Virus record (IMG/VR): IMGVR_UViG_3300046752_000029
Span: 1-46,692 of that record
Direction: 5' to 3' (one strand)
DNA length: 46,692 nucleotides
DNA from: a virus
This document shows, piece by piece, positions 3,106 to 46,160 of the stretch. The position numbers were made by a program, and so were the translations under genes. Under the pieces are notes generated by a model. That model worked only from the letters and a program-made list of their open reading frames with translations, made no database searches and was not told the origin of the DNA. The stretch's first letter is position 1; each line of letters opens with the position of its first letter.

Positions 3106-5579
3106 TGGCAGATATAGATAAAGCAATAGGTTCTGATGATCTAATAGATTTAGAAGTAGATAATCAAGACAAAACAATTAACGTCGAAGTACCAGAAGAC
3201 ATCGAGATAGATTTATCTGTCTTCGAGCGCGGGGAAGATGGAACCCTAACCTTTGGTTCGGTGTTAACGCCAGATTTATCAGAACAATTCAATGACAACT
3301 TAGCTGAATATTTAGAGCAAGATGAGCTCGATGATATTTACAGTGATTTAGTTGACGCCGTAGAAGCCGACAAATCCTCACGACAAGGTTGGGAAGATAC
3401 TTACAAGGAAGGTTTAGAAACTTTAGGAATGAATTATGAAGAAAGGTCACAACCTTTCGAGGGTGCCTCTGGCGTTATGCATCCATTGTTAGCAGAATCG
3501 GTAACTCAGTTTCAAGCACAAGCTTACAAAGAAATACTACCATCGAATGGTCCAGTAAGAACTCAAGTAGTTGGTGCTAAAAATCCAGACAGTGAAGCAC
3601 AAGCTGGTCGTGTTAGTGAATTCATGAACTATCAATTGATGAATGTCATGGAAGAATACGATACTGAAACAGATCAAATGTTATTTTATTTACCATTATC
3701 TGGTTCGGCATTCAGAAAAGTTTACTACGATCAAAATTTAGGCCGTGCTGTTTCTAGATTTATTCCAGCAGAAGATTTAGTTGTGCCTTATGCCACAACT
3801 GATATTTATAGTGCTGGCAGAATTACGCATATCGTTGATATGTCTATGAACGATATTAAAAAATTACAACAAGCTGGATTTTACCGAGATGTCGATATAT
3901 CTGAATCAATGATAGTCGATACCGATACAGATTCTATCCAAGAAGAAATAGATGAATTGCAAGGTGTCGAACCTAGCTATGGCGAAAGCGATCAATGTGA
4001 ACTTTATGAAGTGCATACTGACTTAGATATTCCAGGGTATGAAGATGTAGATGCTGAAGGTGAACCTACAGGAATTAAATTACCTTATGTGATTACGCTT
4101 TCAACTACTACTAACGAAGTATTATCGATTAGAAGAAACTACAGACAAAACGACCCATTGAAAAAACGCATAAATTATTTTGTGCATTATAAGTTTTTAC
4201 CGGGTTTAGGTTTCTATGGATTTGGGTTAACTCACATGATTGGTGGGTTATCAAAAGCGTCAACATCTATTCTAAGACAATTGATAGATGCTGGTACATT
4301 GTCTAACTTACCAGCTGGTTTTAAAGCAAGAGGTATTCGTATCAGAAACGATGACCAACCGCTACAGCCGGGCGAGTTCAGAGACATGGATGCTCCAGGC
4401 GGGAGCTTACGAGATGCTTTTGTCCCACTGCCATTTAAAGAGCCATCTGGCACTTTACTTAATCTGCTAGGTACCTTAGTAGATAGTGGCAGAAAATTTG
4501 CAGCCTTAGCTGAAATGCAAATAGGTGACGCTAACCAAAACATGCCAGTTGGTACTACCGTAGCTTTACTAGAGCGTGGTACCAAAGTCATGTCAGCAAT
4601 CCATAAAAGATTGCATTCTTCACAAAGATTTGAATTTATTTTATTAGCCAAAGTATTCGCTGATTACTTACCACCAGAATATCCTTACATGAGTTCTGCT
4701 GGTGACGGCATGATTAAACAAATGGACTTTGATGAACGCGTAGATGTACTACCAGTTTCAGATCCAAATATTTTCTCCATGAGTCAGCGTGTTATGTTGG
4801 CTAATGAAATATTACAAGTCGTAAATTCAAACCCAGAGATTCATGGCATACAAGGTATCTATGAAGCGTATCGCAGAATGTATGCTTCGATGGGTGTGCA
4901 GAACATAGAACAGTTATTGCCACCACCGCCACAACCGATGCCAACTGATCCAGCAAGTGAAAACGCTTTGTTGATTAAAGGGCAACCTTGTCAAGCCTTC
5001 CCTGGACAAGATCATGATGCGCACATCAATGTGCATATCTCATTAGCACAAACAAGTTCAGTAATGATTGAGCCTATTATCATGACTAACATTCAAGCAC
5101 ACGTTTATCAACATGTAGCTTTACGTGCCGCTGAGATTGTCGACATGCAAAATATGCAAGACCCAGAGTTTATGCAAATACAACAAATGCTTATGGAAAT
5201 GCCACCAGAAATGGCTATGCAACAACAGCAAAAAATAGATGAAGCGATTGCGAAAGATGTGTCACAAATTCAAGCTGGACTGATGTCGCAAATCAATATG
5301 GCATTTGTGCCACCAGCGCCACCAGCAGACCCATTGGTAGCTTTGCGTGATAAAGAATTAGATATTAAGGCTCAAGATGTAGAACGTAAGAGCCAAGAAT
5401 TTGCAGCTAGACAACAATTTGATGCTATGCAAGCCATGAAGCAAATGGAATTAGCTAGAGAAAAATTAAATGTTGCTAGAACGATTGCCGAGATGAAAGA
5501 TGATTTAGGTCGTGATAGATTAGATTCTAGCGCTAGAATAAAAAAAGCAGAATTGCTGATAAAGAATAGAGGAAATTAA
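3105..5579 (+). CDS. Portal protein
   Basis: An 824-residue portal, the dodecameric ring at the capsid vertex through which DNA enters and leaves. The long P22-like type is suggested by length, by the segment SVTQFQAQAYKEILPSNGPV (about 128-147), by the stem/wing region around FVHYKFLPGLGFYGFGLTHM, and by the following GTLSNLPAGFKARGIRI and MPVGTTVALLERGTKVM segments typical of this class. The N terminus is acidic. The C-terminal 200 residues are Gln/Met-rich and end in a charged predicted coiled coil, consistent with a barrel extension. It is next to the terminase, as usual, and translationally coupled to the small gene before it. Confidence 0.93.
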   Translation: MADIDKAIGSDDLIDLEVDNQDKTINVEVPEDIEIDLSVFERGEDGTLTFGSVLTPDLSEQFNDNLAEYLEQDELDDIYSDLVDAVEADKSSRQGWEDTYKEGLETLGMNYEERSQPFEGASGVMHPLLAESVTQFQAQAYKEILPSNGPVRTQVVGAKNPDSEAQAGRVSEFMNYQLMNVMEEYDTETDQMLFYLPLSGSAFRKVYYDQNLGRAVSRFIPAEDLVVPYATTDIYSAGRITHIVDMSMNDIKKLQQAGFYRDVDISESMIVDTDTDSIQEEIDELQGVEPSYGESDQCELYEVHTDLDIPGYEDVDAEGEPTGIKLPYVITLSTTTNEVLSIRRNYRQNDPLKKRINYFVHYKFLPGLGFYGFGLTHMIGGLSKASTSILRQLIDAGTLSNLPAGFKARGIRIRNDDQPLQPGEFRDMDAPGGSLRDAFVPLPFKEPSGTLLNLLGTLVDSGRKFAALAEMQIGDANQNMPVGTTVALLERGTKVMSAIHKRLHSSQRFEFILLAKVFADYLPPEYPYMSSAGDGMIKQMDFDERVDVLPVSDPNIFSMSQRVMLANEILQVVNSNPEIHGIQGIYEAYRRMYASMGVQNIEQLLPPPPQPMPTDPASENALLIKGQPCQAFPGQDHDAHINVHISLAQTSSVMIEPIIMTNIQAHVYQHVALRAAEIVDMQNMQDPEFMQIQQMLMEMPPEMAMQQQQKIDEAIAKDVSQIQAGLMSQINMAFVPPAPPADPLVALRDKELDIKAQDVERKSQEFAARQQFDAMQAMKQMELAREKLNVARTIAEMKDDLGRDRLDSSARIKKAELLIKNRGN

Positions 5580-6265: not shown

Positions 6266-6850
6266 ATGAGAAGCCTTCATTTTCTGCTTCCTGAAGCATT
6301 ACCAAATAATATTATTGAAGATATAAAAAATATGGCGTTACAGTTCCCAGAGGAAATGGGAGTGATTGGCGGAGAAATAGGTAAAAATGCTACGCAAGAT
6401 AAAGATCTTAGAAGGTCTCAAATTCGTTGGATAGACCCACGTACAGACGATACAGCTAAATTAACTAATCTTTGTACTAATTTATTTTGTGATGTTAATA
6501 GAGAAATTTTTGGGCTAGATATTGAAAGAATATTTAATATTCAATACACAGAATACTTAGCAGCTAACAAAGGTTTTTATTATAGACATATAGATAGTTT
6601 TGCAGGCAGAGGAGAAATGTATGATAGAAAACTTAGTATGACCATACAGTTATCTGATTCAGATGAATATGAAGGAGGTGATTTTGAATTCGATAATGAT
6701 ATTTTAAAAAATCCTCCTGATAGAAATACTTTAAGAGAGAAAGGTAGAGTTTTAATTTTTCCTTCTTTTATACCGCACAAGGTAAATCCAGTTACTAAAG
6801 GAATTAGAAAAAGCCTAGTGACTTGGATAGAAGGACCAGCTTGGAGATAA
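6266..6850 (+). CDS. 2-oxoglutarate/Fe(II)-dependent oxygenase (prolyl-hydroxylase-like)
   Basis: A 194-residue member of the 2OG-Fe(II) oxygenase superfamily, which uses 2-oxoglutarate and O2 to hydroxylate a substrate. The iron-binding facial triad is visible as H108-x-D110 (YRHIDS) and H171 (FIPHKV), and R181 (GIRKSL) fits as the 2-oxoglutarate-binding arginine. The segment LSMTIQLSDSDEYEGGDFEF is typical of the PKHD/prolyl-4-hydroxylase subgroup. Such enzymes are common in marine phages; the substrate is unknown and could be a protein or a nucleotide. It lies among basic structural-region proteins and is probably co-transcribed with them. Confidence 0.9.
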   Translation: MRSLHFLLPEALPNNIIEDIKNMALQFPEEMGVIGGEIGKNATQDKDLRRSQIRWIDPRTDDTAKLTNLCTNLFCDVNREIFGLDIERIFNIQYTEYLAANKGFYYRHIDSFAGRGEMYDRKLSMTIQLSDSDEYEGGDFEFDNDILKNPPDRNTLREKGRVLIFPSFIPHKVNPVTKGIRKSLVTWIEGPAWR

Positions 6851-16516: not shown

Positions 16517-17689
16517 ATGGCTCTTGTCCTAAACGATAGGGTAAAAGAAACTACCACTTCTACTGGCACAGGCACCATAAATTTAGCAGGTGCTGAAACT
16601 GGTTTTGAAACTTTTGTAGCAGGTATTGGAAATTCTAATACTTGTTATTACACAATATCTCATCAATCGGCAAATGAATTTGAAGTCGGTTTAGGGACAA
16701 TTACTGACGCTACTCCCGATACATTAGCAAGAACTACAGTTATTAGTAGTTCTAATTCTGACTCTGCTGTAGATTTTTCCGCAGGAACTAAAGATGTATT
16801 TTGTACATTACCTGCAAGTAAAGCTGTATTTGAGGATGCTTCTAATAATGTAGCGATTCCTTCTGGAGGGGTATCTGTTGGTGGTTCAAGCTTAGACCCA
16901 TTATCTTTAACTTTTACAGGAACAGGTTTAGCTTTAAATGAAGATAGTGGTACTGCATTTTTTCAAATAGATAGTGGTAATGGTTCAAGAATAGACTTTG
17001 GAGTAGGTGGAACTAGAAATTTCCTTATTTATAGTGATGCTAGTAATTATGCAGAATTTAAAAGAACAACTAACCACCCAATCCTTTTCGGCACAAATAA
17101 TGCTGAAAGGATGAGAATTTTAGGCGGAGGAGGATTACAACTTGCTGCAGGTAATAATATATCAAACGCTTCAGGAGATTTAACTTTAGATGTTGCAGGA
17201 GATATTATTCTTGATGCAGATGGAGAAAATATAATCTTCAAAGATGGGGGTACTGAAAGAGGTCAAATAGATTTAGGCTCAGCAAACTTTACACTTCGTG
17301 CTTCTACATCAGACAAAGACATGATATTTAGAGTCAATGATGGTGGCTCTGAAATAGTAGCATTGACTATAGATGCGTCAGAGGCAGGAGCTGCAACTTT
17401 TAATAATAACGTCACAGCTTTCTCAGATGAAAGACTTAAAGATAATATTGAAACACTTGAAGATGGTTTAGATAAAGTAGAACAACTTAGAGGTGTCACT
17501 TACACCAGAGACGAAAAAGAAAACATAGGTGTTATAGCTCAAGAAGTAGAAAAGATATTACCAGAAATAGTATTAACAGCAGATGACGAAATGGGTACTA
17601 AGTCTGTAGATTACAGCAGATTAACAGCAGTATTGATTGAAGCTGTAAAAGATTTATCAGCTAGAGTAAAAGAACTAGAGGATAAATAA
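16517..17689 (+). CDS. Tail fibre with C-terminal S74 intramolecular chaperone
   Basis: A 390-residue fibre. The first part is a small N-terminal domain (ALVLNDRVKETTTSTGTGTI), then a beta-rich repetitive shaft (ASGDLTLDVAGDIILDADGE). The last 89 residues are an S74 domain: FSDERLKDNIETLEDGLDKV with S303 and K308 as the predicted Ser/Lys self-cleavage dyad, then EQLRGVTYTR, NIGVIAQEVEKILPEIV, DYSRLTAVLIEAV and a terminal coiled coil. S74 chaperones trimerise fibres and then cut themselves off. The ribosome site AGGAGGA is strong. The next gene overlaps its stop by one base. Confidence 0.9.
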   Translation: MALVLNDRVKETTTSTGTGTINLAGAETGFETFVAGIGNSNTCYYTISHQSANEFEVGLGTITDATPDTLARTTVISSSNSDSAVDFSAGTKDVFCTLPASKAVFEDASNNVAIPSGGVSVGGSSLDPLSLTFTGTGLALNEDSGTAFFQIDSGNGSRIDFGVGGTRNFLIYSDASNYAEFKRTTNHPILFGTNNAERMRILGGGGLQLAAGNNISNASGDLTLDVAGDIILDADGENIIFKDGGTERGQIDLGSANFTLRASTSDKDMIFRVNDGGSEIVALTIDASEAGAATFNNNVTAFSDERLKDNIETLEDGLDKVEQLRGVTYTRDEKENIGVIAQEVEKILPEIVLTADDEMGTKSVDYSRLTAVLIEAVKDLSARVKELEDK

Positions 17690-18468
17690 TGGCAATACCT
17701 GCAAGTGGTTCAGTGTCATTAAGTACAATACAAAGCGAATGGGGCGGTGGTAATCCTATTAGCATGAGTGAATACTATTCAGGAAGTTTGGCTAGTAATA
17801 GCTTAGTTTCTAGTACATCACCCACTGTAGCTACCTCAACTGGAAGTCAGTATTTTCCAGCAACACCAGGAAGCAAAGGTGTTCCAGGAACTGCTGCATA
17901 TACCTCATACTATAGGCAGTACGGTTTTAAAAATAGCAATGTAACTACCATACCCTTAGGTGGTTTTGGCTCTGCTTCTGCAACGACTACTAAAGTAACT
18001 GGTATAGATCAAGTAGGAGAGGCAGGACAAATACCTTCTTCGGGAGCTATACAATTTAATCATTTTAGAGGAACAACTGGCTCTGGCACATCAACCAATC
18101 TGGTGATGTATGGATTTGTTTTATATCATGCTACTTCAACTCTTTCAGGAGGAAGTGCTTCGAGCGGTTTTGGAAATTATTCTCCATATCTTTGGGTATC
18201 AGGTCATCATGGAACTACTGGTACTTTAGGAAATAACTGGTCTAATGTGCCTTTTCGTTATTTTGATACACCTGCTAAAAACGGAGCACCTGCAACAAGG
18301 TGGTATGGTTCAGATACTCATGTAAACAACAGTATTAATGTAGCAAAACAATACTGTTTTCATTATACCTATCCAAGTATAGGAGCTGTTACAGCATATA
18401 GTTATACAACTAATCAAAGCACAATGTTGACTATGTCGGGAACTTGGACTATTACGGTGCAATTCTAA
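17689..18468 (+). CDS. Tail fibre or receptor-associated structural protein
   Basis: A 259-residue Ser/Thr/Gly/Tyr-rich protein. It starts MAIPASGSVSLSTIQSEWGG GNPISMSEYY, a signature I know from marine phage fibre proteins with variable C termini, followed by a central IQFNHFRGTTGSG turn and a Tyr/His-rich beta C-terminal region ending in WTITVQF. The related protein at 22507 shares this design (ASGNLTLNQIH...IEIGDFYGAT). The aromatic-rich variable end suggests surface binding to receptor sugars, but that is inferred. The gene overlaps the upstream fibre and the downstream small gene by one base each. Confidence 0.75.
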   Translation: MAIPASGSVSLSTIQSEWGGGNPISMSEYYSGSLASNSLVSSTSPTVATSTGSQYFPATPGSKGVPGTAAYTSYYRQYGFKNSNVTTIPLGGFGSASATTTKVTGIDQVGEAGQIPSSGAIQFNHFRGTTGSGTSTNLVMYGFVLYHATSTLSGGSASSGFGNYSPYLWVSGHHGTTGTLGNNWSNVPFRYFDTPAKNGAPATRWYGSDTHVNNSINVAKQYCFHYTYPSIGAVTAYSYTTNQSTMLTMSGTWTITVQF

Positions 18469-18701
18469 TGGTAAAAAAAGCAGAAGATATTATTTATTAC
18501 GAAGAAACTGCGGGGGATGGTAATACATCGTATCGTTTCGATTATAGAGGTATTGCTATTCGTAAGCCAAAATCTATGTTCGATGGACAGACAGACTTAC
18601 AAATTAAACAAGAATTTTTTAGACACATAAAACAAGAAAATATATATGATATATTTAGTGTTGACACTAACGCTAAAAAAGTTACAACGGAGGAGATCTA
18701 A
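18468..18701 (+). CDS. Small hypothetical protein, first of inserted cassette
   Basis: A 77-residue protein with start ATG at 18468, chosen because it overlaps the preceding stop (TAATG); a longer reading from TTG at 18444 has little support. The sequence KKAEDIIYYEETAGDGNTSY RFDYRGIAIRK is probably beta, and the C-terminal half is charged and helical (TDLQIKQEFFRHIKQENIYD). I do not recognise it. It is the first of five genes (18468-20599) that do not look like fibre proteins although they lie in the fibre locus. Its stop overlaps the next start by one base. Confidence 0.6.
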   Translation: MVKKAEDIIYYEETAGDGNTSYRFDYRGIAIRKPKSMFDGQTDLQIKQEFFRHIKQENIYDIFSVDTNAKKVTTEEI

Positions 18702-19435
18702 TGACTGTAAGATTTGATTTTAATTGGATAGAAGAAACCCATAAAATTATTGATGATGAGTTTCAAGTCACTGTTACTGTAGGAAACAAAGGAGATATAC
18801 AAAGTCGAGATACTTTTGAAGAAGGATTGCTTTACTTTAGTGAGACTACTGCTGAAATAAAAGAACACATTCTTGACGAAGAAAGCTCTCATATTGTATA
18901 TCGACCAAACCATTTTATTCTTATACAAGGCAAAATCCAATCATGCCAAAGATGGTCGGAAGAGGATGGTATAGAAGCAAAGGACATTGAAAGACTCAAA
19001 GAAATTACTAAAAATGATAAAATTAAAAAAGGAGAATACACAGAAAGCACAACTGAAGATGCCATAACTAATAGAGAGTTTTTAACTAGCTATAAATTTG
19101 GAGCAGACTTTGATGAAGCATATCCTCGATCAGCCATGTGGCACTTAAACGGAAGATTTGCCAGTCAGACAGCCATGGAAGATGATACGAGGTTTCTTTG
19201 TTTTATGACTGAAAAGCCGGGATATAATTTAAAGCTTTTAGACATAGAGCCCGGTAAAACAAAAACTCTTTTGAAAGAAAATAATATTAATCATGTGTTT
19301 TTTTCTCAAGCTTGTTCTTTAAATCAACAATCTAATTACGTAGATCAATATGATGTAAAAAAATTAACAAGCCCATCAATTGACATAACAAACGAATCTT
19401 CGGAAGTAGCCAGAATAGTTTCTATCACAAAGTAA
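18701..19435 (+). CDS. Hypothetical protein with possible cupin-like C terminus
   Basis: A 244-residue protein with no family I can name. The first 70 residues are beta-like (VRFDFNWIEETHKIIDDEFQ, VTVTVGNKGDIQSRDTFEEG). A charged helical insert follows (IERLKEITKNDKIKKGEYTE). The last 100 residues (AMWHLNGRFASQT, then YNLKLLDIEPGKTKTLLKEN, HVFFSQACSLN and SSEVARIVSITK) have the alternating strand and PG-turn texture of a cupin, but with no clear metal-binding His cluster. It is translationally coupled to the gene upstream (TAATG), and precedes the Coq4 homologue by one base. Function unknown. Confidence 0.6.
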   Translation: MTVRFDFNWIEETHKIIDDEFQVTVTVGNKGDIQSRDTFEEGLLYFSETTAEIKEHILDEESSHIVYRPNHFILIQGKIQSCQRWSEEDGIEAKDIERLKEITKNDKIKKGEYTESTTEDAITNREFLTSYKFGADFDEAYPRSAMWHLNGRFASQTAMEDDTRFLCFMTEKPGYNLKLLDIEPGKTKTLLKENNINHVFFSQACSLNQQSNYVDQYDVKKLTSPSIDITNESSEVARIVSITK

Positions 19436-19436
19436 A

Positions 19437-20210
19437 ATGTTTAATTTATTTACTTTTTTAAAATTGTCTAAATCAATTTTATTAAAAGATTCTTACGAAC
19501 AAAGAGAATCACATCCAGAGGCCAGAGCAAGACTTTCAGAACTACAAGCTATGTATGCACAGCTGATGTTTATTACTAGAAAAAAAATGCGCAAAAACTT
19601 TACAAGCTCTCCTACAAGAATAAATATTGCTTTAGGATTAGATTGGAATGATCCTAAGTATTGTAAAAAAAATATAATACCTAAAATATCTAGTATGAAA
19701 TATTTAAGAAGTTTACCTCCTAATACTGCGGGTGGACATCTTGCTAAATTTTTTAACAAGTGGACCTTTAATGATCTTTATAAAAATAGATTTGAAAAAG
19801 AAACTGCGGAAGCTGATATGCTTTCTGACGATAGAATAAATACTTTAAGAAATAATGTTGGCAGACACATGATGCTAACGCACGATTTACACCACATATT
19901 ATTTAAATATGATACTTCACCTTTCGGCGAAGCTTTAATACAAGGCACTACTTGGAAACAAGTAGACAATATAGGGATGTGGTATGTAGGTTTTTTAGTT
20001 ACTTGCAGAATTGCTTGGCGATCAAAGTCATTCAAACCTTTTTTAATATATAGAGAAGCCTGTAAGATAGCTGAAAAAGTAAACAAACATAATCTAATAG
20101 AACACTCTTTGCTATACTTTCTTGAAAAAGATGTAGACCAAATTAGAAAAGAATTTGGTTTTGAAGAACCTGTTAGATATTTAAAATGGATTAAAAAAAA
20201 CGAGGAGTAA
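19437..20210 (+). CDS. coq4-like: Coq4-family protein
   Basis: A 257-residue homologue of Coq4, a protein needed for ubiquinone biosynthesis in mitochondria and many proteobacteria. The family metal motif HDxxH-x11-E is complete: H149-D150-x2-H153 (MLTHDLHHILF) and E165 (PFGEAL). The preceding YLRSLPPNTAGGHLAKFFNK segment and the following MWYVGFLVTCRIAW match the family pattern. The basic N terminus with MFNLFTFLKLSKSILLK could be amphipathic and membrane-associated. It lies in a cassette of small genes between fibre genes, next to two membrane proteins. A quinone-related metabolic role is inferred; it might act on a different substrate in phage. There is no SD-rich leader. Confidence 0.82.
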   Translation: MFNLFTFLKLSKSILLKDSYEQRESHPEARARLSELQAMYAQLMFITRKKMRKNFTSSPTRINIALGLDWNDPKYCKKNIIPKISSMKYLRSLPPNTAGGHLAKFFNKWTFNDLYKNRFEKETAEADMLSDDRINTLRNNVGRHMMLTHDLHHILFKYDTSPFGEALIQGTTWKQVDNIGMWYVGFLVTCRIAWRSKSFKPFLIYREACKIAEKVNKHNLIEHSLLYFLEKDVDQIRKEFGFEEPVRYLKWIKKNEE

Positions 20211-20338: not shown

Positions 20339-20599
20339 ATGAAAATAAAGGAAAAATTATTTTACTTAATGCCTGTATTAAATACAGCTTTTACAGAAGG
20401 TAAATGGAATTTTCCTATAATTAAAAAAGTAAAAGAATTTTATCAAAAACACGGTTTATTATTAACTATTGGTTGGATAGTTTTTATTGTAGTAGGAACT
20501 AAGATTGTATTTATTAATGGAACAATTTTTCTTTTAAATACTTTTTTAGGAACAGACATTGCTTATGGCCCTGTCTATCAATTTTTATCTGGTAATTAA
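20339..20599 (+). CDS. Small membrane protein next to Coq4 homologue
   Basis: An 86-residue protein with a basic N-terminal part (EGKWNFPIIKKVKEFYQKHG) followed by a long hydrophobic stretch LLLTIGWIVFIVVGTKIVFI NGTIFLL that could span the membrane once or twice. It starts directly after the preceding stop (TAA then ATG) and ends directly before the next structural gene. I do not recognise the family. It may belong with the Coq4-like gene as a membrane anchor or be a holin or lysis modulator. Confidence 0.65.
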   Translation: MKIKEKLFYLMPVLNTAFTEGKWNFPIIKKVKEFYQKHGLLLTIGWIVFIVVGTKIVFINGTIFLLNTFLGTDIAYGPVYQFLSGN

Positions 20600-21356: not shown

Positions 21357-22523
21357 ATGGCAAGTACGTTTGATAATAATCTCAGACTTAGAGAAATGGG
21401 AACTGGTGATGAATCAGGTACTTGGGGTACTCGTACTAATGAAAATCTTGAACTGATTGGAGAGGCTTTCGGTTATGGCACTGAAGCAGTTAGTGGTACA
21501 ACGCACACAACAACAATAGCTAATGGATCTACTGACCCTGGTAGAGCAATGTATCTTAAATACACTGGCGCTTTAGGCGCAAATTGCACGATAACTTTAG
21601 CGCCTAACACGATTTCAAAATTATGGTTTATTGAAAATGCAACTACTGATTCAGGTAGTTCAGGACCATACAGCATTATTATATCTCAAGGATCTGGTGC
21701 AAATATCACTATACCAAATGGTAAAACTAAATTAGTTTATACAGATGGAGTTGGGTCTGGAGCTGCTGTAGTTGACGGTTTTGATAAAATAGATATAGGT
21801 GCTAATGCAACAAGAAACGGTGGCAGTTTTAGTGATGTTACTGCAACTTCAACAACAACTTTTACCAATAAAACTTTTGATGCAGACGCAACAGGTAATA
21901 GTTTAACTAATGTAGAAGATGCCAATATTAAATCAGGTGCTGCAATAGATGCTACTAAAATAGCTGATGGCTCAGTAACAAGTACAGAGTTTCAATATAT
22001 CAATACACTTTCATCTAACGCACAAACCCAAATAAGTGCAAAATTAAATTCAGCTTTACCTAATGATGCTTGGATTAGTTCCGCTGATGGCAGGAATAGA
22101 CTTTATTTTACTTCAAACGCTAATACTGTAATGAAGTTTGATACTCAATGGCGAGTTGATAATAATGCTGGCACTACTATGTTGAGTTGTGATACTAGCG
22201 GTAATTTTACAGCTACAGGTAATGTAGGTGCATATTCTGATATGGCGCTGAAAGAAGACATTTACCAAATAGAAAACGCTTTAGAAAAAGTAAATCAATT
22301 AAGAGGCGTTCACTTTACTCGTAAATCAAACAGCTCAAAAGAAATAGGAGTAGTAGCTAACGAAGTAGAGAAAGTGGTGCCAGAGCTAGTAGATGAACAT
22401 GAAGACAAAGAGTTAGGCACAGTAAAAACTATGAAATACGCTAATACAGTAGGACTACTTATAGAAGCAGTTAAAGATTTAAGTAAACAAGTAGAAGAAC
22501 TGAAAAATGACTCTAGCAACTAG
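21357..22523 (+). CDS. Tail fibre with S74 chaperone, second copy
   Basis: A 388-residue fibre. The N terminus MASTFDNNLRLREMGTGDES GTWGTRTNENLELIGEAFGY is a signature of marine phage fibres; it is followed by a Thr/Ser-rich shaft. The last 96 residues form an S74 domain: AYSDMALKEDIYQIENALEK with S294 and K299 as predicted dyad, VNQLRGVHFTRK, EIGVVANEVEKVVPELV, and a C-terminal coiled coil with TVGLLIEAVKDLSKQVEEL. Its design matches the fibre at 16517, although the N-terminal parts differ. The next gene starts inside its 3' end. Confidence 0.9.
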   Translation: MASTFDNNLRLREMGTGDESGTWGTRTNENLELIGEAFGYGTEAVSGTTHTTTIANGSTDPGRAMYLKYTGALGANCTITLAPNTISKLWFIENATTDSGSSGPYSIIISQGSGANITIPNGKTKLVYTDGVGSGAAVVDGFDKIDIGANATRNGGSFSDVTATSTTTFTNKTFDADATGNSLTNVEDANIKSGAAIDATKIADGSVTSTEFQYINTLSSNAQTQISAKLNSALPNDAWISSADGRNRLYFTSNANTVMKFDTQWRVDNNAGTTMLSCDTSGNFTATGNVGAYSDMALKEDIYQIENALEKVNQLRGVHFTRKSNSSKEIGVVANEVEKVVPELVDEHEDKELGTVKTMKYANTVGLLIEAVKDLSKQVEELKNDSSN

Positions 22524-42853: not shown

Positions 42854-44860
42854 ATGTCGCTGATACTAAACGAAAATAAATCTTGGGAAAATATTTCCGA
42901 GGAAGCCAGACAAGAGATGATTTGGTCTTTCTGGGAAGAAGGCTTTCATTTAATACCTTGTGGTTCTCGAAACGAAGCTATCCCAGAATACTTTAGAAAG
43001 CGTCATCCGTTTGAAGACGATGACAAGCTCAGTGCAAAATGGGCAAAGACACCCAGAGTCAGATGGGAAACTTATCAAAGAAGACAACCCACGCAAGAAG
43101 AATTAAGAGAGTGGTTGGCTCGATATCCGGGAGCCAACTGGGCTGCTATCACTGGGATAACTTTTGTTGTCCTAGATTGCGATAGCGAAGAGGCGGTCAA
43201 GTTCGTAGAATCTGGTCAAGTAACTAGATCGCCTCTTAAACAGAAGACTCCTCGCGGTGGCTATCATTATTTTTATCAAGTCAATGAAGGTCTGAATGTC
43301 AGAAACATGACTGGTAAATTAGATGTCAGAGGCGAAGGTGGTTACGTTATGGTTTCACCTTCTACTAAATATTTTTTTGAAACAGCAGCTGGCTTGGTCG
43401 TGAACGACATCGATGATTTGCCGATGCTTAATATGGAAGACTTGAACAACATACATGATTACAATCAATCGGATAAGGTTACTTCGATTCTAGATAATAA
43501 AAACAAACTCACTGCTGACCCAGTAGATGTTGGTCAAAGAAACGATACCTTGGCTAGATTGATTGGTAAATGGATTAAAGAAGGTTGGGGTTATCGTGAA
43601 GTCTTGATTAAATGTTTTGATTGGAATCAAACTTTGCAACAACCTTTACCCTTTCCAGAAGTATTGCAAACATGTATGTCGATTACCCAAGGACATATCA
43701 AACGACACCCAGAAGATACGGATGCTGGTATCTTAGAATGGAAAACTAGTGAATGGGAGATAGATTTAAAAGATGAACTCAAAGAGATTATGGATCAAGA
43801 AGATCCTATCATCGACCAAAAGCGTAAAGATGATTTAACAGACCCACTAGGTTTAAAACCTTACAACGATGAGTTCTGGACTGGCTTGGAGCCTAGTTCT
43901 ATTGGTCAGTTTTGGGGTGATTGTTTTATCTTTGAACAATCTAGATGTTTGTTGATTGGTAAACCCAAGATAGGTAAGTCGCATTGGCTTGGCGGTTTTG
44001 CTGCGGCAGCCACAACTGGACAATCATTTATGGGCAAACCTTTTACGCGTCCTTGTAAAGTTATGTGGTTGCAAGCAGAGATTATCCAAGAGTTCTTAAA
44101 AAATAGAATCGATACTTACTACCAACCTTACATGCATGACCCAGACTTGATGGCGATGGGACATGCTAACTTGATACCGACTGGTAGATTGAGAAAGAAT
44201 TTAATGAGAGATAAAGATATTGATGGCATCGCTAGAAGTATTGAATATCATCAGCCAGATATTGTGATGATTGACCCTATCATTAATTTTTTTGATGGCG
44301 AAGAGAACAGCAACCAAGAGATACATAATTTATTATCTAGAGTAGATCGTTTGATTGAACTCTTTGGTGTTGCAGTAATCATCGCACATCATACTGGTAA
44401 AGAAAGAGCCGACGACGCTTCGTTTATGTCAGCACGTGGTGGTTCTGCTTTTGCTGGGTGGATGGATTCTGGTATCAAACTCATGGGACAAAAGCCAAAT
44501 GTAACGATGTTCTATGAAGCAAGAAACGCAAGGGAGCCAGATACACACTTGGCTAGATTTGATTTTGAAAAAGGAACATGGGACATGGTTGATTTTGACG
44601 AGGGTCCAGATGAAGTAGATATTGCTCAGAAGGTAGCTGATGCAATGGATAGAATTACTTTCTATACAAGACAAGAGTTAGAGATCTTGGCAAGACAAGC
44701 GTTGAAAGAAAACAATTTACCTAGTGGCGAACGAGCTGCAAGATACGCGGTTAGTCATGTGCAAAAGTATTTAGGCGATATAGTTAAGACTCATGCTATC
44801 CCTGGAAAACAAACTTGGCATTATCGATTTGATAACAAGGGTAGGAAACCTTGGGAATGA
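42854..44860 (+). CDS. Primase-polymerase / RepA-like helicase fusion
   Basis: A 668-residue fusion. The N-terminal part is an archaeo-eukaryotic-type primase: TGITFVVLDCDSEEAV (D108, D110), TPRGGYHYFYQV (H138) and NMTGKLDVRGEGGYVMVSPS. The C-terminal half is a RecA-type hexameric helicase: Walker A GKPKIGKS (369-376), Walker B IVMIDPI (470-476), AHHTGKERADD and SARGGSAFAGWMD. It would prime and unwind DNA at the origin. The GGGAGAAAT ribosome site is clear. No DNA polymerase gene is in the window, so synthesis may use a host enzyme or a gene beyond the edge. Confidence 0.9.
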   Translation: MSLILNENKSWENISEEARQEMIWSFWEEGFHLIPCGSRNEAIPEYFRKRHPFEDDDKLSAKWAKTPRVRWETYQRRQPTQEELREWLARYPGANWAAITGITFVVLDCDSEEAVKFVESGQVTRSPLKQKTPRGGYHYFYQVNEGLNVRNMTGKLDVRGEGGYVMVSPSTKYFFETAAGLVVNDIDDLPMLNMEDLNNIHDYNQSDKVTSILDNKNKLTADPVDVGQRNDTLARLIGKWIKEGWGYREVLIKCFDWNQTLQQPLPFPEVLQTCMSITQGHIKRHPEDTDAGILEWKTSEWEIDLKDELKEIMDQEDPIIDQKRKDDLTDPLGLKPYNDEFWTGLEPSSIGQFWGDCFIFEQSRCLLIGKPKIGKSHWLGGFAAAATTGQSFMGKPFTRPCKVMWLQAEIIQEFLKNRIDTYYQPYMHDPDLMAMGHANLIPTGRLRKNLMRDKDIDGIARSIEYHQPDIVMIDPIINFFDGEENSNQEIHNLLSRVDRLIELFGVAVIIAHHTGKERADDASFMSARGGSAFAGWMDSGIKLMGQKPNVTMFYEARNAREPDTHLARFDFEKGTWDMVDFDEGPDEVDIAQKVADAMDRITFYTRQELEILARQALKENNLPSGERAARYAVSHVQKYLGDIVKTHAIPGKQTWHYRFDNKGRKPWE

Positions 44861-44861
44861 T

Positions 44862-44870
44862 TGGTACAAT
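44862..44870 (+). promoter_or_regulatory. Extended -10 promoter before methyltransferase
   Basis: TGGTACAAT is an extended -10 form (TGn plus TACAAT), with the ATG of the methyltransferase six bases later. It overlaps the palindrome TACAATTTGTA (44865-44875), which resembles the operator half-sites elsewhere. Confidence 0.5.
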
Positions 44871-44876
44871 TTGTAT

Positions 44877-46160
44877 ATGAAAGTTTTAAGTTTATTCGAT
44901 GGCATGAGTTGTGGTCAGTTGGCACTGAATAGACTCGGCATCAAAGTCGATAAGTATTACGCAAGTGAGATAGATAAGTATGCGATACAAGTTACTCAAG
45001 CAAACTTCCCAGAAACAATACAAGTTGGCGATGTCTGTAATTTAAAAGCAGAAGATTATCAAGACATAGATTTAATTTTAGCTGGTAGTCCTTGCCAAGG
45101 CTTTAGTTTTGCTGGTAAGCAGTTGGCTTTTGATGATCCGCGTTCAGCGTTGTTCTTTGAATTTATTAGATTGTTGAAAGAGATCAAGCCAAAGTATTTT
45201 TTACTTGAGAACGTCAAGATGAAGAAAGAATTTCTGGAAGTCATTACCGATCAAGTATCAGCTTGTTATCCAGAGTTTCAAGGTAAAGATTTATTTGGTG
45301 GCAAGATTGAACCGATATTAATTAATAGTGCTTTGGTATCAGCACAATCTAGACAAAGATATTATTGGACAAACATACCTAATGTTGAACAGCCAGACGA
45401 TCTGGGCATAGTATTGAGAGATGTTTTAGAAGACGAAAGTCAAGCAGATTTGGTTGGCAATAACGGTAGAGAAGCATTTAAAGAAAATATACAGAAAGGC
45501 ACTGCTTTATTAGCTAGAGATTGGAAAGGTTGGAATACTTATGGCATGACTGGAGTACAAACTACACCCAAACAAGTAGGTATAGCATCAGATATTAATG
45601 GTCATGACATTTTAAAAAGAGTGTATAGCCCAGATGGTAAGTCGCCTACTTTGAATACTATGGGTGGCGGTAATCGTGAACCCAAGGTAGTTTCTGGAGG
45701 TGCTTTTCGCGGTAGAGCTTACGATGATAAAGGCAAACGCATGGATAAAAATGGCAACTCGGTAGCTAACAAAACAAAACAAATGTTAGAAATGAGAAAA
45801 GACGATAAAGCAAATGCAATAACTACAGTAGGCAAAGATAGTATTGTGGTATCAGAAAAAACTAATCAGATAAATCCTAGTAAAAAAGCTAGTGGCAGAC
45901 AACCTTACATACAAGACAGAGTCTTTCACAAAGATGGTAAGTCACATGCTTTGACAGAGTCTTTTGCTGACAGAACAAATGTTGGCGAACACAGTGATTT
46001 AACTTGGCGGAAACTGACGCCCTTGGAATGCGAAAGATTGCAGACAGTCCCAGACAATTACACTGATCATGTATCAAAGACACAAAGATATAAGATGTTG
46101 GGTAATGGTTGGACAGTCAGTGTGATCTCACATATCTTGAGTAATATGGAGAGTCAATGA
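44877..46160 (+). CDS. C5-cytosine DNA methyltransferase
   Basis: A 427-residue methyltransferase starting at ATG 44877, where the FDGMSCGQ motif I begins; a longer reading from 44793 adds a non-homologous leader that lies in the previous gene. Motif IV is PCQGFS (72-77), motif VI ENV (111-113), motif VIII QSRQR (157-161), then a long target-recognition region and motifs IX-X LECERLQTVPDNYTD...MLGNGWTVSVISHIL. It adds a methyl group to cytosine in a specific sequence, likely to protect phage DNA from host restriction. No cognate restriction gene is present. Confidence 0.93.
   Translation: MKVLSLFDGMSCGQLALNRLGIKVDKYYASEIDKYAIQVTQANFPETIQVGDVCNLKAEDYQDIDLILAGSPCQGFSFAGKQLAFDDPRSALFFEFIRLLKEIKPKYFLLENVKMKKEFLEVITDQVSACYPEFQGKDLFGGKIEPILINSALVSAQSRQRYYWTNIPNVEQPDDLGIVLRDVLEDESQADLVGNNGREAFKENIQKGTALLARDWKGWNTYGMTGVQTTPKQVGIASDINGHDILKRVYSPDGKSPTLNTMGGGNREPKVVSGGAFRGRAYDDKGKRMDKNGNSVANKTKQMLEMRKDDKANAITTVGKDSIVVSEKTNQINPSKKASGRQPYIQDRVFHKDGKSHALTESFADRTNVGEHSDLTWRKLTPLECERLQTVPDNYTDHVSKTQRYKMLGNGWTVSVISHILSNMESQ

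Follow-up and report, generated by a model that had tools for sequence, protein, structure and literature searches.

A divergent Coq4-family gene in the tail-fibre region of a pelagiphage-like podovirus

The podoviral sequence analysed here (IMG/VR virus record IMGVR_UViG_3300046752_000029, positions 1 to 46,692, referred to as the window at its full length of 46,692 nucleotides) carries in its tail-fibre region an open reading frame whose product was confirmed, by profile comparisons, as a divergent Coq4-family protein. A sequence-only reading had proposed that this protein might tune host ubiquinone during infection or that a repurposed metal site might modify another molecule. As a whole, this interpretation was partly supported. 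In our preferred explanation, to which we assign a probability of about 0.5, the protein would be an auxiliary metalloenzyme, probably decarboxylating an aromatic acid in the membrane, most likely a ubiquinone precursor of the host. The gene and the relevant parts of its product are located as follows:

19437..20210, + strand: gene of the Coq4-family protein, 257 aa, recognised with PF05019, a bacterial Coq4 HMM, hhalign and 11 viral relatives
19437..19667, + strand: N-terminal region, approximately residues 1-77; the Pfam and HMM matches start only at residue 77-79
19881..19931, + strand: codons of the HDxxH-x11-E motif (H149, D150, H153, E165), read directly from the sequence

The reading frame is uninterrupted and starts one base past the stop of the preceding open reading frame. 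The Pfam family Coq4 (PF05019) matched the 257-aa protein with 25.9 bits (E 7.4e-6) at a gathering cut-off of 22.9, and the alignment placed residues 79-245 on positions 67-220 of the profile, which has a length of 221. A hidden Markov model built from 56 proteobacterial Coq4 proteins assigned the protein 60.8 bits (E 5.7e-15, database size set to 1e6) and matched none of the other open reading frames in the window. When the viral alignment was compared with 21 bacterial Coq4 sequences in hhalign, the result was 98.2% with an E of 4.8e-14 over residues 78-254. The proposed homology to Coq4 was thus borne out by the Pfam score and the profile-profile comparison. The identity to the aligned bacterial members is low, mostly 15-22%. 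The protein has no match in PHROG, and NCBIfam yielded nothing useful. The Coq4 match is confined to the C-terminal two thirds of the protein and falls short of a full-length Coq4 domain, as the N-terminal 77 or so residues have no detectable Coq4 similarity. This N-terminal region opens with a hydrophobic stretch and is conserved among the viral relatives.

Weak single-sequence similarity and the absence of the gene from isolate phage records are features that would also be expected of a chance resemblance, or of an assembly artefact in which bacterial DNA was joined to a phage contig. Against chance, 5,000 shuffles of the residues of the protein reached at most 6.0 bits with the bacterial Coq4 model, compared to 60.8 bits for the native sequence, and the profile-profile E value was as given above. 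Against an artefact, the gene and its neighbourhood recur in 11 IMG/VR contigs at up to 30% divergence. Chance similarity and mis-assembly, both highly improbable, were rejected on the shuffle scores and the recurring synteny.

All metal-site residues named in the sequence-only reading occur in the protein, and H153 is separated from E165 by exactly 11 residues. Across 61 aligned viral and bacterial sequences, the columns of H149, D150, H153 and E165 show no variation, and G99, F105, Y158, G164, Q175, R237, P245 and Y248 are widely retained. The motif is intact in 11 of 11 viral relatives, across the 30% divergence among the viral copies. In support of the intact metal site, the motif aligns without gaps to the Coq4 structures 3MSQ and 6E12, and the four residues are equivalent to H120, D121, H124 and E136, the metal-site residues of Alr8543 (PDB 6E12; PMC9774615). 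A mixed profile of viral and bacterial sequences (A2) matched 3MSQ and 6E12 strongly, which is mostly owed to its bacterial members; the viral-only profile had 3MSQ as its top match with an E of only 0.2, aligned across the motif. Two AlphaFold models calculated from shallow viral alignments were of low confidence (mean pLDDT 41.2 and 51.6), and Foldseek returned no significant fold match for these low-confidence models.

The relatives of the gene on the 11 IMG/VR contigs share 70-100% identity with it. PF05019 scores among the relatives include 25.8 bits (L005) and 37.5 bits (L015). As far as each contig reaches, the gene is found in the order 244-aa protein, Coq4, 86-aa protein amid fibre genes. 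From seven additional viral scans, the only gains were the L015-L017 subgroup, one contig with a second type of Coq4 (L185, see below) and contigs with the neighbouring genes. A scan of genome contigs with the viral profile revealed no close cellular relative, the viral Coq4 gene was absent from the plasmids and isolate phages searched, and isolate phages queried with bacterial Coq4 and with the L185 Coq4 yielded nothing. In the window, the surroundings of the gene comprise:

16517..17689, + strand: upstream tail-fibre protein with a C-terminal S74 chaperone domain (PF13884, 63 bits; PHROG tail fibre families)
18444..18701, + strand: small protein of 85 aa with a TTG start, upstream in the cassette; 71-72% in syntenic contigs
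18701..19435, + strand: 244-aa protein without a family match; relatives 71-100% identical
20339..20599, + strand: putative small membrane protein of 86 aa with a hydrophobic stretch, directly downstream of Coq4
21357..22523, + strand: downstream tail-fibre protein with an S74 chaperone domain (PF13884, 50.9 bits; PHROG tail families)

With S74 fibre proteins on either side and a terminase and portal of the HTVC023P type, the location in a podovirus structural region, which had been regarded as unexpected, was verified. The 244-aa protein lies directly upstream of the viral Coq4 wherever a contig holds both genes and has no match in Pfam, PHROG or isolate phage records. The 86-aa protein, for which a membrane location is putative, likewise had no match in isolate phage records and retains 92-98% identity in diverged relatives; no other gene of the cassette is as well conserved, although local identity in the fibre-region gene that follows is only 36-42%. 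Purifying selection acts on the Coq4 gene. Pairwise estimates of a simple kind, in which the dS of several genes approaches or exceeds 0.9, gave a dN/dS of 0.11-0.18 for Coq4, 0.10-0.13 for the 244-aa protein and 0.07-0.11 for the 86-aa protein (0.07-0.18 for the three together), compared to 0.47-0.67 for the adjacent fibre-region genes at 17689 and 20600. Viral Coq4 thus has the features of an auxiliary metabolic gene: phage structural genes flank it in 11 contigs, selection maintains it, and related proteins are encoded by proteobacteria.

The position between two S74-domain fibre genes could also point to a non-enzymatic Coq4 fold that binds lipids or quinones, organises a complex or takes part in the virion or in fibre assembly, and a role as organiser of the CoQ complex has been proposed for Coq4 itself (PMC11495197; PMC9774615). 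We consider such a binding-only or virion role quite unlikely because the metal ligands are strictly conserved among the viral copies and because the cassette, with its low dN/dS, is unlike fibres in its evolution. Furthermore, the L185 Coq4 adjoins lysis genes and not fibres.

Comparison with HTVC023P, HTVC027P and 023Pt_psg01 revealed identities of 61% for TerL, 46-52% for the portal and 66-71% for the capsid protein, and the gene order of the window follows HTVC023P. These comparisons identify the window as a pelagiphage-like podovirus of the HTVC023P type, related to viruses of the most abundant bacterium of the ocean. HTVC023P itself has two 2OG-Fe(II) oxygenases and a putative ferrochelatase between its counterparts of the fibre-region genes, indicating that this phage group carries metal-enzyme genes at the equivalent stretch. 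A 2OG-Fe(II) oxygenase gene of the window (6266-6850; PF13640, 55.2 bits) is placed between the portal and capsid genes, whereas those of HTVC023P are in the fibre region. A gene for a C-5 cytosine-specific DNA methylase (44793-46160; PF00145, 171 bits) is present at the window end, beside a primase-polymerase gene. In TerL, the freshwater phage DSL-LC04, the host of which is given as Gammaproteobacteria, is equally close to the window. The G+C content of the window (36.7%) is nearer to that of the pelagiphages (36.0, 34.7 and 36.7%, with 36.0% for HTVC023P and 36.7% for 023Pt_psg01) than to that of DSL-LC04 (52.4%); it favours, without proving, a SAR11-like host, and SAR11 is the probable host.

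Coq4 was detected in none of 147 SAR11-order genomes, in 20 of 240 genomes of the class and in 32 of 399 of the phylum. UbiD was likewise found in none of 58 SAR11-order genomes. Coq7 was present in 53 of the 58, which indicates that the search works in SAR11 and that these bacteria probably make ubiquinone. In other alphaproteobacteria, the flavoprotein UbiN can serve in C1 decarboxylation (PMC10626278). If the host is a SAR11 bacterium, the phage gene would supply an enzyme type which the host lacks and would not be host-derived.

In animals, COQ4 bearing this motif decarboxylates C1 in a reaction that depends on Zn, and mutation of the motif abolishes the activity (PMC7615680); human COQ4 has also been described as an oxidative decarboxylase (PMC11495197). 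For the viral system, the data establish the gene and its family, a complete set of metal-site residues, purifying selection, a conserved cassette and the occurrence of Coq4 in another phage lineage; we infer that the protein binds a metal and is catalytic, and likewise its substrate, the host and the advantage gained. A pelagiphage-like podovirus would carry a divergent Coq4 metalloprotein as an auxiliary metabolic gene in its fibre region. By homology, H149, D150, H153 and E165 would bind a divalent metal, which is zinc in animal COQ4. A lipophilic aromatic acid may be the substrate on which the protein works at the membrane, and the most likely reaction would be removal of the C1 carboxyl group from polyprenyl-4-hydroxybenzoate, a ubiquinone precursor. 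During infection the quinone supply of the host could thereby be kept up or redirected, which makes the earlier suggestion that the viral protein tunes host ubiquinone plausible.

Several observations count against this ubiquinone reading. Besides the low identity, the long branch of the viral clade and an N-terminus that does not resemble Coq4, the window has no other recognised quinone gene, and uninfected SAR11 probably makes ubiquinone already without Coq4, so that the need for a viral copy is less evident. The SAR11 host is itself probable rather than proven, and the low-confidence models gave no confirmation of the fold. In addition, a control search detected PF05019 in Synechococcus elongatus. 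Cyanobacteria have plastoquinone in place of ubiquinone, and the domain alone therefore does not give the substrate. Coq4 paralogues are also often present in several copies per alphaproteobacterial genome, with up to six matches in one, so that the family appears wider than ubiquinone synthesis. Given the length of the branch, the novel N-terminus and the absence of further recognised quinone genes, a different substrate is a serious rival, less probable than the ubiquinone precursor but well within consideration: the Coq4-fold metal enzyme would have been repurposed for some other lipid or aromatic substrate, such as a different prenylated compound, a lipid of the membrane or a molecule of the cell surface, and might act jointly with the putative membrane protein encoded at 20339-20599. 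The fixed cassette around the gene consists of function-unassigned genes and not of quinone genes, which is in agreement with such a repurposing. On the other side, no observation points positively to another substrate, and the viral protein retains the metal motif of the family as well as the neighbouring residues Y158, G164 and R237. Decarboxylation of the ubiquinone precursor remains our preferred reading.

A second phage Coq4 was identified on contig L185 (IMGVR_UViG_3300012952_003062, positions 4133-4813). Its product is near-canonical (PF05019, 86.5 bits) with an intact motif, and the gene is flanked by a lysozyme gene on one side and a 2OG-Fe(II) oxygenase gene on the other; holin, Hsp20 and ThyX are encoded close by. 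In the phylogenetic tree, the L185 Coq4 is placed among bacterial Coq4s with moderate support (83%) and apart from the clade of the window; the latter forms a long branch, and its tree position is for this reason unreliable. The placement of L185 suggests that the two genes are likely separate acquisitions, and the presence of Coq4 in a second, unrelated phage contig indicates that marine phages of more than one lineage benefit from it.

We found no phage Coq4 in the isolate phage records, in PHROG or in the open literature searched. The main text of a study on pelagiphage gene content mentions neither ubiquinone nor Coq (PMC9599517). A wider proposal, which we put forward as speculative and rather doubtful in its full extent, is that marine phages acquired Coq4 on at least two occasions and thereby supply a type of ubiquinone C1 decarboxylase that SAR11-like hosts, having neither Coq4 nor UbiD, lack. 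The supply of respiratory quinone would then be a novel point at which viruses reprogramme their hosts. If active, the protein would point to viral control of the respiratory quinone in abundant marine bacteria. The diverged viral Coq4 and the near-canonical L185 form offer a natural test of the residues needed beyond the metal site, at a time when the reaction chemistry of Coq4 has only recently been established.

The HDxxH-x11-E spacing of the viral protein is the same as in the Coq4 family, including animal COQ4, Nostoc Alr8543 (6E12), 3MSQ and the proteobacterial proteins, and G99, F105, Y158, G164 and R237 around the motif are shared as well, within a match that spans residues 77-254. It differs from the family in its 15-22% identity to bacterial members, its long branch, its unrecognisable N-terminal 77 or so residues and the location of its gene in the fibre region of a lytic-type phage. 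The auxiliary genes of HTVC023P-type phages (PMC9599517) occur in the same phage group and in the same variable stretch, but belong to enzyme families unrelated to Coq4. L185 resembles the window in having a phage-borne PF05019 protein with an intact motif; unlike the window, it is a different phage type with a near-canonical Coq4 next to lysis and 2OG-Fe(II) oxygenase genes. A further parallel is ubiG, reported as a viral auxiliary gene from the Baltic Sea, through which viruses were likewise proposed to affect ubiquinone and electron transport in the host (PMC9301287); ubiG represents a methyltransferase step, whereas the gene of the window encodes a Coq4 metalloprotein.
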